This document shows, piece by piece, positions 2,872-6,782 of a stretch of 27,800 nucleotides of DNA; the stretch's first letter is position 1; each line of letters starts with the position of its first letter. The notes below the pieces were generated by a model. It was not told where the DNA came from and did not search any database. It worked only from the letters and a program-made list of their open reading frames with translations. Source of the DNA: a virus. Location: positions 1 to 27,800 of IMG/VR virus record IMGVR_UViG_3300032265_000983. One strand, given 5' to 3'. The translations under genes were made by a program, and so were the position numbers.

Positions 2872-3062
2872 CTAAAGGTACTAAATCCCAAAATCTTGTT
2901 TTTAATAGCAAAAATAAAGTTTCTAGGAATTATCAATATGAAGAAGAGGAAATCTCTTTTAAAGAAGTAAAAAGAGAAAAAAACCAAAAAAAGTATAAGA
3001 ATTATCAAAATGTCTTGAGAGCAAAGAATATAGATGCTCTCCTTGACTATGAGGAAGAATAA
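2868..3062 (+). CDS. Small highly charged hypothetical protein
   Basis: This 64-residue protein is very rich in lysine, glutamate and asparagine. It starts in an ATGA overlap with the preceding gene and ends in a TAATG overlap with the next. Coding potential rests mainly on this unbroken chain of overlapping stops and starts. A basic middle is followed by an acidic tail (DYEEE). No recognisable fold or function. Confidence 0.65.
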   Translation: MTKGTKSQNLVFNSKNKVSRNYQYEEEEISFKEVKREKNQKKYKNYQNVLRAKNIDALLDYEEE

Positions 3063-3259
3063 TGATCGTTATTACAAACGATGTAATTTGGTTTGCTATT
3101 TGCTATACTTCTCTGATCGCTGCTATAGCGTTATTCTATAATTACACTGGATATCGTAGCGGAATAGCTGATTGTATAGAAACACTAAAAAAATATGAAC
3201 CTGAAGCAATCGAAAGAGCTTCAAACAAGATCAAACTAAAGGCACAGGAAAATGACTGA
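3062..3259 (+). CDS. Small single-pass membrane protein
   Basis: This 65-residue protein has one hydrophobic segment at about residues 4-27 (VIWFAICYTSLIAAIALFY), followed by a soluble, partly basic helix with YRSGIADCIETLKKYEPEA. It looks like an N-terminally anchored protein, with the short N-terminus on one side of the inner membrane and the rest on the other. It begins in a TAATG overlap and overlaps the next gene by 8 bases. Function unknown. Small membrane proteins in phages often act on lysis timing or superinfection, but nothing here proves that. Confidence 0.7.
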   Translation: MIVITNDVIWFAICYTSLIAAIALFYNYTGYRSGIADCIETLKKYEPEAIERASNKIKLKAQEND

Positions 3260-3449
3260 TACAGAAGAAAAAAAAATGCTATGGTATGCTAATGCCATAG
3301 GCAATACCTTGGATGAATATTTTAGCCCTAAACATACTAATCCTGCATTGGAAACTATTGTAGAACAAGATATGCGTGCCATGGGCTATGATCCTACTAG
3401 TTCGCAAGATGTAAAAGAATATTGGAAATCAAAGGGCATCAATGCCTAA
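3252..3449 (+). CDS. Small hypothetical protein
   Basis: This 65-residue acidic protein overlaps the previous gene by 8 bases and the next also by 8. It has a tyrosine- and aspartate-rich sequence with DEYFSPKHTNPALETI in the middle and ends KSKGINA. AGGAAA at 3246-3251 directly upstream of the ATG is a weak ribosome binding site at very short spacing, so coupling to the upstream gene is likely. No function recognised. Confidence 0.7.
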   Translation: MTDTEEKKMLWYANAIGNTLDEYFSPKHTNPALETIVEQDMRAMGYDPTSSQDVKEYWKSKGINA

Positions 3450-3703: not shown

Positions 3704-4525
3704 ATGGAACGAGTCTCACGCGCCGAGAAAAGAAAAAAGAAACACCAACAGCGTAATGGAGAAACCCAATATAATCAAGAACAACCAAAACAAAGATTTA
3801 TCCTGAAAGACATAGAACCTATAACAAAAAACCAAGAGATAGTTTTTAGAGATTTTAGCATTGGCAAGAATTTACTTATTCACGGATTGCCTGGCACAGG
3901 TAAATCATTTATTTCTCTTTACCTAGCACTATCAGAAATTGAAAATTACCAAACCTATAAAAACATCACTATAATTAGATCAGTAGTTCCTTCTAGAGAT
4001 ATGGGATTCCTTCCTGGTTCTATTATTGAAAAATCAAAAATATACGAACTTCCATATATGGCAATTTGCAATGAACTATATGGTCGTGGTGATTCATATG
4101 ATATACTCAAAAACAAAAAAATTATTGATTTTCAAACATCTTCCTTCCTCAGGGGGTTGACATTAGATCACAGTATCATTATAATAGATGAGTGTCAAAA
4201 CATGACATTTCAAGAATTGTCAACAATCATTACTCGTACAGGTAGCAGTTCAAGAGTTATCTTCTGTGGTGATTATAGACAAACAGATTTGAAATATAGC
4301 GATGAGAAATCAGGTATCTTTCACTTCATGGATATCTTGAATAACATGACTAAGTATTTTTCATGCGTTGAATTCGAAACAGAAGATATTGTAAGATCAG
4401 GACTTGTGAAAGATTTCATTATTAAGAAAATGTATCTTGAAAACAAAAAATATGAAAAGATGAATGTAGTAAATGTTTCCGATAGCAGTAATAAAACAAC
4501 CAAAGATCTTCAACCATCTTACTAG
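3704..4525 (+). CDS. phoH: PhoH-like P-loop ATPase
   Basis: This 273-residue protein has a Walker A motif GLPGTGKS at residues 61-68, a Walker B stretch IIIIDE at about 158-163, and the helicase-like pattern FCGDYRQTD near residues 187-195. Together these mark the PhoH family of ATPases, widespread in marine phages and named after a phosphate-starvation gene. The biochemical role in phages is unsettled; RNA-related helicase activity has been proposed for the family. The first 30 residues are strongly basic and may bind nucleic acid. The last 53 bases overlap the following nuclease gene, an unusually long overlap that suggests coupled translation. Confidence 0.9.
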   Translation: MERVSRAEKRKKKHQQRNGETQYNQEQPKQRFILKDIEPITKNQEIVFRDFSIGKNLLIHGLPGTGKSFISLYLALSEIENYQTYKNITIIRSVVPSRDMGFLPGSIIEKSKIYELPYMAICNELYGRGDSYDILKNKKIIDFQTSSFLRGLTLDHSIIIIDECQNMTFQELSTIITRTGSSSRVIFCGDYRQTDLKYSDEKSGIFHFMDILNNMTKYFSCVEFETEDIVRSGLVKDFIIKKMYLENKKYEKMNVVNVSDSSNKTTKDLQPSY

Positions 4526-5177
4526 AGATTTTATATTTGAAGAACTAGAACAAATCAACTCTGACACCGGCAGAACATATAAAACTCCTGCCGGTGTTAT
4601 TTACCCTTCAGTCACTACAGTTATTGGCGATGAGTCAAAGCAAAGCATTTCTGAATGGCGTAAGCGAATTGGTGACGAGGAAGCAGATCGAATCTCAAAG
4701 AAAGCAACGACTCGTGGAACTCGTATCCATGAAATGTGTGAATATTACGTAGATAACAAACCGCTTATCAAGAAAGATTTTTCTTATTCTGATATTGAAA
4801 TGTTCACTCAGATAAAGAATACGCTTGATGAGCATGTAGACAATATTCATATGCAAGAGGAACGTCTTTATTCTAAATTCCTTGAACTTGCAGGAACAGT
4901 TGATCTTGTTGCAGAATACGATGGTAAACTCTCTATCATTGACTTCAAGACATCTACTAAGATAAAAGATGTGAAGTATATCAAGGGTTACTTGATGCAA
5001 GCATCTGCTTACGCTATCATGTACGAAGAGCTTACAGAAATTCCCGTGAGTCAAACTGTTATCATTATTGCAGTTGATGATGAACTTGCACCACAAATCT
5101 TTATTCAAAAAAGAGATGATTGGGTAGGTCCTTTGCTTGATACTAGACAAAAATATAAGGCAAAATACGGGATATAA
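4473..5177 (+). CDS. PD-(D/E)XK-family exonuclease (RecB/Cas4-like)
   Basis: This 234-residue protein carries the nuclease pattern GTRIHEMCE at about residues 87-95, then LAGTVDLVAEYDGKLSIIDFKTS at about 138-160. The D of GTVD and the D-x-K of IDFKT are the expected metal-binding and catalytic residues, followed by a helix with the QASAY motif typical of RecB-type nucleases. Such genes are common in T4-like phages and are probably used in DNA degradation or recombination. The ATG at 4473 lies inside phoH and lacks a clear ribosome binding site, but it is the only ATG before the conserved region, and IFNHL after it looks like the usual N-terminus of such proteins. The exact start is therefore uncertain by up to about 15 residues. 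Confidence 0.85.
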   Translation: MFPIAVIKQPKIFNHLTRDFIFEELEQINSDTGRTYKTPAGVIYPSVTTVIGDESKQSISEWRKRIGDEEADRISKKATTRGTRIHEMCEYYVDNKPLIKKDFSYSDIEMFTQIKNTLDEHVDNIHMQEERLYSKFLELAGTVDLVAEYDGKLSIIDFKTSTKIKDVKYIKGYLMQASAYAIMYEELTEIPVSQTVIIIAVDDELAPQIFIQKRDDWVGPLLDTRQKYKAKYGI

Positions 5178-5197
5178 CGGTTGACATTTAAACCGTT
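5176..5197. repeat. Inverted repeat overlapping the tmRNA promoter
   Basis: AACGGTT (5176-5182) and AACCGTT (5191-5197) form a perfect 7-bp inverted repeat with an 8-base loop, starting at the stop codon of the nuclease gene. The left arm overlaps the first bases of the TTGACA -35 box and the right arm lies in the spacer. It could be a weak terminator for the nuclease gene, an operator, or both. Confidence 0.6.
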
Positions 5198-5211
5198 TAT
5201 TGTTATAAATA
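5181..5211 (+). promoter_or_regulatory. Overlapping sigma70-type and T4 late promoters for the tmRNA gene
   Basis: TTGACA at 5181-5186 is a perfect -35 box. Seventeen bases later TATAAA (5204-5209) serves as a -10 box. The same bases extended by two give TATAAATA (5204-5211), the exact T4 late promoter consensus. Both would start transcription near 5216-5217, directly before the acceptor piece of the tmRNA. This predicts expression by host polymerase early and by gp55/gp33-modified polymerase late. Confidence 0.75.
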
Positions 5212-5282
5212 ATATGCTTAGGTTGTTGAGGCGTAAAGAATAGATGATTTGGACTCGGGGGCAGTACCCGACGCCTCCACCA

Positions 5283-5374
5283 TAAGCACAAGCGTCCTGC
5301 GAGAGAGTTGCTTTAGGGTAGGACGACAGGGAATAGAACAGCAACTAATACCTGTTTTCACTTGTGCTTATGAT
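5283..5374 (+). other. Intervening segment of the permuted tmRNA precursor
   Basis: This segment joins the encoded CCA to the mature 5' end and should be removed in processing. Its ends, TAAGCACAAG (5283-5292) and CTTGTGCTTA (5361-5370), are perfect complements and extend the acceptor stem into a duplex of 21 positions with one G-U pair and one mismatch (C5280/A5373). The loop holds three further stems: CGTCCT/AGGACG (5293-5298, 5320-5325), AGTTGCT/AGCAACT (5306-5312, 5340-5346) and ACAGG/CCTGT (5326-5330, 5351-5355). The second crosses both others, so it would form chained pseudoknots. Confidence 0.8.
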
Positions 5375-5438
5375 GGGGGCGATATAGGTTCGACAGATCG
5401 TGGTAAAGGTACGAAGAGACCAAAAGCAAACGTTAGAT

Positions 5439-5480
5439 GCAAACGATAATGCACTCATTGAGACTCGCCTAGCGGCTTAA
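5439..5480 (+). other. tmRNA tag-peptide reading frame
   Basis: Thirteen codons (GCA at 5439 to GCT at 5477) followed by TAA at 5478-5480 encode ANDNALIETRLAA. The bases CGTTAGAT before the resume codon resemble the conserved context upstream of tmRNA resume codons. The terminal LAA matches the ClpXP-recognised end of known tags. Alanine carried by the tmRNA itself would precede this peptide. Confidence 0.9.
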
Positions 5481-5492
5481 GTTTCACGGGTA

Positions 5493-5530
5493 TGAGCTCC
5501 ACCTCGGAACAGAAAGGGCTCACTAATTTT
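5493..5530 (+). terminator. Possible terminator or 3' hairpin of the tmRNA coding piece
   Basis: TGAGC (5493-5497) pairs with GCTCA (5518-5522), and inner TCC (5498-5500) can pair with GGA (5506-5508), followed by CTAATTTTCTT. The U-tract is short and interrupted. The element may instead be the final helix of the tmRNA coding piece, so I hold both readings open. Confidence 0.4.
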
Positions 5531-5547
5531 CTTACTAGGATCATGAT

Positions 5548-5787
5548 ATGAAAATTAATAATATGAAATCTTCTACTGAATTTATTATGGAAATAGAATC
5601 ACTAGTCAAAGAAAAAAACATTGAGTATATTGAAGCAATCATTCTTTATTGCGAAAAAAACAATATCGAAGTAGAAACTGTTGCTTCTATCATCAAACAA
5701 AATCAAGCAATAAAATTTAAAGTACAGAATGAAGCAGAAACTCTTAAGATGGTAAAATTTAATCCATCGGCGAGATTACCTATATAA
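5548..5787 (+). CDS. 33: Late transcription coactivator gp33-like
   Basis: This 79-residue acidic helical protein is shorter than T4 gp33 but close to the short gp33 forms of marine T4-like phages. The features I match are EFIMEIESLVKEKNIEYIEAI, ILYCEKNNIEVETVASIIK at the centre, and a C-terminal hydrophobic patch ending SARLPI. gp33 bridges RNA polymerase and the sliding clamp so that gp55-directed late transcription is activated. In T4, gene 33 lies in the rnh-dsbA-33-59-32 cluster. Here gp33 is directly followed by gp32, with no gp59 between, which supports the call. AGGA at 5537-5540, seven bases before the ATG, favours this start over the internal ATG at 5563. Its final codons contain a late promoter. 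Confidence 0.75.
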   Translation: MKINNMKSSTEFIMEIESLVKEKNIEYIEAIILYCEKNNIEVETVASIIKQNQAIKFKVQNEAETLKMVKFNPSARLPI

Positions 5788-5876: not shown

Positions 5877-6782
5877 ATGGCTACATCTTTTGATTCCCTT
5901 AAGGAAATGCGTAAGTCCTCATTCGACAAGCTCAATGCAGAACTCGCAAAGTTAAATCAATCAACAAACAACAATTCTGATAATGAAGACAACTTCTGGA
6001 AGCCAGATGTTGATAAGGCAGGCAATGGCTATGCAGTCATTCGTTTCCTTCCTGCACCTTCAGGTGAAGATGTTCCTTTTGTTCGTATCTGGGATCATGG
6101 ATTTCAGGGACCTGGTGGTTGGTATATTGAAAAGTCACTTACGACTTTTGGTCAGCCCGATCCTGTTTCTGAATACAATTCTAAGCTCTGGGCAACAGGC
6201 ATGGAATCAAACAAGGATTTGGTTCGCAAGCAGAAGCGTCGTCTTTCATACTTCTCGAACATCTTGGTCGTAAAGGATCCTACTCGTCCTGATAACGAAG
6301 GCAAGGTATTCCTGTATAAGTATGGCAAGAAGATCTTTGACAAGTTGAATGAGTCGATGAATCCTCAGTTCTCTGATGAGAAGGCAATCAACCCATTTGA
6401 TTTCTGGGAAGGTGCAAACTTCAAGTTGAAGATTCGTCAGGTTGAAGGTTATCGTAACTATGATAAGTCAGAGTTTGATAGTCAGTCGCCTGTAAGCAAT
6501 CTTGATGAGGATCTTGAGCGCATTTGGAAGATGGAACATTCATTGCAGGAATTGCTCGACAAGAAGCACTTCAAGTCCTACGAGGATCTTAAGAAGCGTC
6601 TTGAGAAAGCAATTGGTGTTGCTAGTTCAGCGCCTGTAATGAGCAATCCTGTTACTGCTCCTGAGGCAGCGCCTGAGCCTACATTTAAGCAAACAGCGGC
6701 GCCTACTGCAACTACAGCAGCAGCACCGTGGGATGATGAGGACGAGGATCTTTCATTCTTCAAGAAACTCGCTAAGGATTAA
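5877..6782 (+). CDS. 32: Single-stranded DNA-binding protein gp32
   Basis: This 301-residue protein matches T4 gp32 in size and order of parts. The N-terminus has the basic LAST-like RKSS (about residues 12-15) and LNAELAKLN. The OB-fold core has AGNGYAVIRFLP at about 48-59, GGWYIEKS at about 80-87, RLSYFSNILVVKDP at about 122-135, EGKVFLYKYGKKIFDKL, and FWEGANFKLKIRQVEGYRNYD. The acidic C-terminal tail DDEDEDLSFF is the part that recruits partner proteins in T4. The start at 5877 is chosen because GGAGA (5866-5870) lies six bases upstream and the homologous N-terminus starts there; a longer frame back to 5808 is possible but would begin inside the promoter. The protein contains no cysteine, so the zinc site of T4 gp32 is absent. 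It ends convergent with the minus-strand operon. Confidence 0.95.
   Translation: MATSFDSLKEMRKSSFDKLNAELAKLNQSTNNNSDNEDNFWKPDVDKAGNGYAVIRFLPAPSGEDVPFVRIWDHGFQGPGGWYIEKSLTTFGQPDPVSEYNSKLWATGMESNKDLVRKQKRRLSYFSNILVVKDPTRPDNEGKVFLYKYGKKIFDKLNESMNPQFSDEKAINPFDFWEGANFKLKIRQVEGYRNYDKSEFDSQSPVSNLDEDLERIWKMEHSLQELLDKKHFKSYEDLKKRLEKAIGVASSAPVMSNPVTAPEAAPEPTFKQTAAPTATTAAAPWDDEDEDLSFFKKLAKD

Follow-up and report, generated by a model that had tools for sequence, protein, structure and literature searches.

A permuted tmRNA gene in a T4-like phage neighborhood

The window, i.e. the whole stretch of 27,800 nucleotides of viral DNA that was analyzed here, carries a locus which an earlier note, made from the sequence alone, had read as a circularly permuted phage tmRNA gene of the alphaproteobacterial type. 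Covariance-model searches bear out both parts of this reading: the Rfam alpha_tmRNA model matches positions 5177-5524 (+) with 103.9 bits (E 1.2e-27; gathering score 50) and tmRNA_permuted matches 5221-5480 with 93.3 bits (gathering score 47), and ARAGORN likewise calls a permuted tmRNA, with the tag ANDNALIETRLAA. The note had expected hits from the alphaproteobacterial and the cyanobacterial models alike. The former came in above threshold on the plus strand as foreseen; cyano_tmRNA, which is part of the same model library, was either lower-scoring or without a match, given that the output retains only the best of overlapping matches within a clan.

The gene consists of two pieces, both delimited by cmscan and ARAGORN. 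The acceptor (tRNA-like 3') piece spans 5217-5282 (+), with a predicted 5' end, and contains the T arm (5255-5271) and an ACCA (5279-5282) made up of the discriminator A5279 and a CCA encoded at 5280-5282, upstream of the mature 5' end at 5375. The mRNA-like (5') piece, at 5375-5524 (+), begins with the acceptor strand GGGGGCG (5375-5381), which forms seven pairs with 5272-5278, the third of them being G5377·U5276. The CCA-ending strand ahead of the 5' end, the seven acceptor pairs and the G-U third pair are thus as the note had described them, and the tag frame followed by a stop that it had proposed is found intact by ARAGORN at 5439-5480 (+), encoding ANDNALIETRLAA with its LAA tail. Taken together, it is well supported by these sequence features that the locus encodes a circularly permuted, two-piece tmRNA of alphaproteobacterial type belonging to the phage.

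Of the 182 distinct permuted tmRNA genes in viral contigs, all but one (181) have G·U as their third acceptor pair, and all (182/182) have A as the discriminator. In an alignment of 12 genes (A1) three other acceptor pairs have changed on both sides with the G·U constant, and the tag peptide ANDNALIETRLAA recurs in two further contigs (L146 and L088) encoded by DNA differing by synonymous changes. The window tmRNA has all the sequence elements that charging and tagging require, and the gene looks both functional and long resident. SmpB was looked for in 14 related phage contigs (83-223 kb), without a match.

The earlier claim that the gene has its own promoters agrees with the promoter signals present at the locus. 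A T4-type late promoter motif, the octamer TATAAATA, lies at 5204-5211 (+), from which a start near 5217 is predicted, and a TTGACA resembling a sigma-70 -35 hexamer is directly readable at 5181-5186 (+), 17 nt before TATAAATA; our consensus scan had omitted this sigma-70-like signal, since the accompanying TATAAA does not end in the T of the consensus. Of 180 phage permuted-tmRNA genes, 106 have the octamer no more than 65 nt upstream, as against 1.1% of random windows from the same contigs, and in 100 of these 106 the distance from its end to the CCA end is 65-73 nt. The motif suggests late expression of the window tmRNA and bears on the timing of phage trans-translation, in contrast to the early expression that was assumed for the tmRNA of phage Melnitz (PMC9004378).

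Directly upstream of the tmRNA is a gene for a PDDEXK exonuclease (phrog_298; 4473-5177, +), and downstream are genes for a gp33-like late-transcription coactivator (phrog_254; 5548-5787, +) and a gp32-like single-strand DNA-binding protein (phrog_224; 5877-6782, +). PhoH is also among the neighbors, and at a greater distance upstream, at 1610-2449, there is a gene for a 5'-3' exonuclease (phrog_107). Of the rnh-33-32 placement proposed earlier the gp33-like and gp32 genes hold, but the adjoining upstream gene is the PDDEXK exonuclease and not rnh. In the viral contigs a PDDEXK gene lies upstream of the tmRNA at 71 loci, and 101 tmRNA genes have T4-like neighbors; the window has the tmRNA between the PDDEXK nuclease and gp33 of a T4-like phage, which is the Melnitz-type placement. 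The tmRNA looks like an old syntenic resident of T4-like phages, kept at the PDDEXK-gp33 junction across large divergence. At the corresponding position a set of T4-like contigs (L261-L280) has tags of different types (ANDSLFALAA, ANDELFALAA), perhaps belonging to beta-type permuted tmRNAs, and some of the contigs may be host DNA.

The intervening segment and its exchange between phage tmRNA genes

The CCA end and the mature 5' end are separated by an intervening segment of 92 nt (5283-5374, +), which its fold, its covariation, its replacement in close relatives (L123, L203) and its identity in a more distant one (L283) point to as an exchangeable structured cassette. It folds with -33.8 kcal/mol (z -4.7 versus shuffles). 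A closing helix, for which both fold and covariation speak, pairs 5283-5292 with 5361-5370 (both +) and encloses two hairpins. In the first (5293-5325, +; 5293-5298 with 5320-5325) three of six pairs have changed on both sides, with all cells paired, and in the second (5326-5355, +; 5326-5330 with 5351-5355) there is one compensatory pair. Their loops, GUUGC (5307-5311) and GCAAC (5341-5345), are complementary, making a kissing helix between them possible; they are invariant across 12 copies and thus do not covary. Over the 12 distinct copies of the family 393/393 cells are paired and 11 pairs have changed on both sides, with none of 500 shuffles reaching as high a covariation. This shows the predicted two-hairpin RNA with its closing helix to be a covarying structure. 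The loops are nearly identical across two subtypes of the family whose stems differ by compensatory changes.

Two scans recovered this family from 22 viral contigs, with one match per contig and all 22 matches inside a permuted tmRNA. None was found in the bacterial and archaeal genome contigs, sequenced phages or plasmids that were searched, and a covariance model of the cassette added no further certain member, its only such hit (L303) having already been found by the pattern scan. The cassette was also considered as a known RNA, but there is no Rfam match for the window segment or for the other families.

Exchange is indicated by a comparison of the segments with the tmRNA bodies around them. 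Two contigs (L123 and L203) are 91-99% identical to the window over the flanking genes and 97-98% over the tmRNA body, yet their segments, of 62 and 63 nt, are wholly unlike that of the window, the similarity breaking off directly behind the CCA end and resuming directly ahead of the 5' end. Between the window and L123 identity is 0.98 in the body and 0.43 in the segment; the corresponding values are 0.99 and 0.60 for L123 and L203, and 0.995 and 0.52 for L124 and L205. The converse is seen as well: the exact 92-nt segment of the window is identical (1.00) in L283, with the upstream part of the tmRNA at 0.81 and the downstream part at 0.64, and identical segments are also shared by L288 and L289 (95 nt, 1.00; body 0.70) and by L317 and L322 (1.00; body 0.55). 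Across 147 genes segment and body similarity are nearly uncoupled below 95% body identity, and even for bodies more than 95% identical the segments are unrelated in 13 of 36 pairs. At an identity cut of 0.72 a total of 165 segments fall into 111 families. Chimeric metagenomic contigs are unlikely to account for this, since identical combinations turn up in more than one independent sample (e.g. L288 and L292). Hence, it appears well supported by these comparisons that phage tmRNA genes exchange the segment and that the exchanged stretch is bounded by the mature ends.

Pairs of genes sharing a cassette have a T arm identity of 0.75, versus 0.83 in other pairs, and an identity of 0.74 versus 0.85 over the first bases downstream of the acceptor. 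The pairs are not independent, but flanks that are no more alike in same-cassette pairs argue against plain homologous recombination tracts. A homing endonuclease was considered as the mover; among the neighbors listed we noticed, by eye, one isolated GIY-YIG-like protein (L232) and no regular association. In the 193-nt segment of L129 two tandem cassettes are separated by a repeat of the acceptor 5' strand (GGGGGCG), which may reflect how cassettes are inserted.

A second cassette family is present in 25 contigs, nearly always inside tmRNAs, and includes identical segments of 62-64 nt in tmRNAs that are only 55-68% identical. It is retained inside a decayed tmRNA in L306. Outside tmRNAs it caps a long intergenic hairpin in L315 and L316, and in an isolate, the unrelated podovirus Roseobacter phage CRP-143 (L327, about position 1500), an exact 30-base core of it lies at the end of a hairpin that is long and nearly perfect. 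The second family has one copy in each of 8 records in which it occurs, and neither family shows the many copies per genome of a dispersed or MITE-like repeat.

Phage segments have a median length of 84 nt; a closing helix is present in most of them, the interior varies, and many segment families were seen only once. Some have genes as their contents: a tRNA-Val gene lies between the two tmRNA pieces in L087, a DUF6356 protein gene (E 5e-12) occupies the segment of L084, and several other segments have conserved small frames. The segment of L113 has a small protein gene with a weak DUF2061 match. As general features neither small reading frames (24 of 80 long segments versus 13 expected, such that only some are real) nor T-arm-like hairpins (8 of 149 versus 1.6 expected, too few for a rule) held up.

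Interpretation of the locus and its cassettes

In our view the window probably encodes a phage tmRNA that works and is expressed late; the gene would be long established in T4-like phages, and the discarded segment would serve as an exchangeable cargo slot. What is inferred in this explanation is that the gene is expressed and its RNA processed, that the cassette RNA is released, and that the cassette has any function. Under this explanation, transcription would start near 5217 from the T4-type late promoter, and host tRNA-processing enzymes would cleave the precursor at 5282, the CCA end, and at 5375, the 5' end. The host AlaRS would charge the RNA with alanine via G3·U70 and host SmpB would be its partner, so that stalled chains would receive the tag ANDNALIETRLAA at a late stage of infection. 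What is cut out between the pieces would be a tolerated slot for cargo, here a 92-nt structured RNA cassette, and such cassettes would be substituted for one another or transferred among phage tmRNA genes, the joints falling at the mature ends.

The chief alternative, one of appreciable but less than even probability, is that the segment is a neutral spacer in an ordinary phage tmRNA: only its closing helix would be needed, while the interior would drift fast and homologous recombination between co-infecting phages would shuffle it. This would account for the closing helix being kept in most segments with differing insides, and recombination is frequent in T4-like phages. Against it speak loops that stay nearly identical between the two subtypes of the window family despite compensatory stem changes, identical 62-64-nt segments in tmRNAs of 55-68% identity, and flank identity that is not raised in same-cassette pairs (0.75 vs 0.83 in the T arm; 0.74 vs 0.85 downstream), as does the occurrence of one cassette family outside tmRNAs. 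Covariation with fixed loops and the spread to other contexts suggest that cassettes may have a function.

A more specific reading, which we put forward tentatively, is that the cassettes are functional phage RNAs, such as decoys or regulators directed against host defence, for which the slot would provide free high-level expression and release. Their covarying structure and conserved loops would fit such a role, as would the single copy per phage, unlike dispersed repeats, the exact 30-base core of the second family outside a tmRNA in CRP-143, and the DUF6356 and tRNA-Val genes in other slots (L084 and L087); the lack of any Rfam match and the many families seen once only weigh against it. 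With comparable caution the segment could be viewed as a general cargo slot, in which mobile structured RNA modules and mini-genes are traded between phages, to be expressed and set free through tmRNA processing and act on the host or on rival phages. Phage tmRNAs have so far been discussed only for ribosome rescue. If the segment is such a trading post, a whole class of phage RNAs and mini-genes would have gone unseen there, at a site that nobody annotates, and near-identical phages differing mainly in the cassette would be a natural experiment on its role.

The earlier note had derived the gene from an alphaproteobacterial host, and the match to the alphaproteobacterial covariance model would agree with this. 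Nevertheless, a recent capture of a host ssrA is improbable: the tag form ANDNxxxETRLAA, searched with a pattern checked on the collected loci, occurs in 0 genome contigs of an 84,980-species collection, a T4-type late promoter is in place, and the gene has the same syntenic position in divergent phages. With no match in that collection, the tag also could not serve to identify a host. The chance that the gene is a non-functional relic is slighter still, in that decay does occur, as seen in L306, but the identity elements here are intact, acceptor changes are compensatory and tag changes synonymous.

Comparison with known systems

The two-piece tmRNA gene of phages is already known: Melnitz (Methylophilales phage EXVC044M, infecting OM43), described in 2022, has a two-piece ssrA of alphaproteobacterial type ahead of the late-coactivator gene, and 53 two-piece tmRNAs were counted among phage genomes (PMC9004378). 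The exchanged intervening segment, on the other hand, seems to be new to the literature; we found no earlier account of segment exchange in open-access full text, the range covered. Melnitz resembles the window in its permuted alphaproteobacterial-type tmRNA, the order PhoH - PDDEXK - ssrA - gp33, the upstream TATAAATA and a long intervening segment (142 nt in Melnitz). Its tag, ANDNYVPVDYALAA, is different, its segment is unrelated, and its tmRNA is followed by a glutamine riboswitch. Such a riboswitch beside ssrA is common, though not defining, in the Melnitz-type group (PMC9004378), and none is present in the window. In Melnitz (L122) it lies at 3358-3406, between the tmRNA (2933-3350) and the downstream gp33, a position that would seem to suit control of gp33 better than control of ssrA, contrary to the published reading.

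The alphaproteobacterial two-piece tmRNAs (RF01849; RF04321, PMC11915505) share with the window the gene order, the acceptor and T-arm features, and a tag starting with ANDN and ending in LAA. In contrast to the exchanged phage segments with their median of 84 nt, about nine bacterial ssrA genes of the chromosomal type, located on chromids or megaplasmids, have a plain hairpin of 22-35 nt, albeit in a small sample. Extra plasmid-borne ssrA copies of Methylobacterium and Bosea (L338, L339) have segments of phage-like length (83 and 95 nt). The bacterial comparison comprises the nine genes on large replicons and these two longer plasmid copies.

Two further systems place additional sequence within tmRNA genes. 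The Rickettsia palindromic elements (PMC2229807) are, like the cassettes, short mobile palindromic sequences within the gene, but they are dispersed genomic repeats, whereas the phage cassettes occur in one copy per phage, exactly fill the segment, have a conserved internal fold and are replaced by unrelated cassettes. The group I introns of tmRNA genes (PMC11915505) are comparable as cargo that is missing from the mature RNA; they interrupt the T-loop region and self-splice, whereas the cassettes sit between the mature ends and would need only the processing cuts that already exist.
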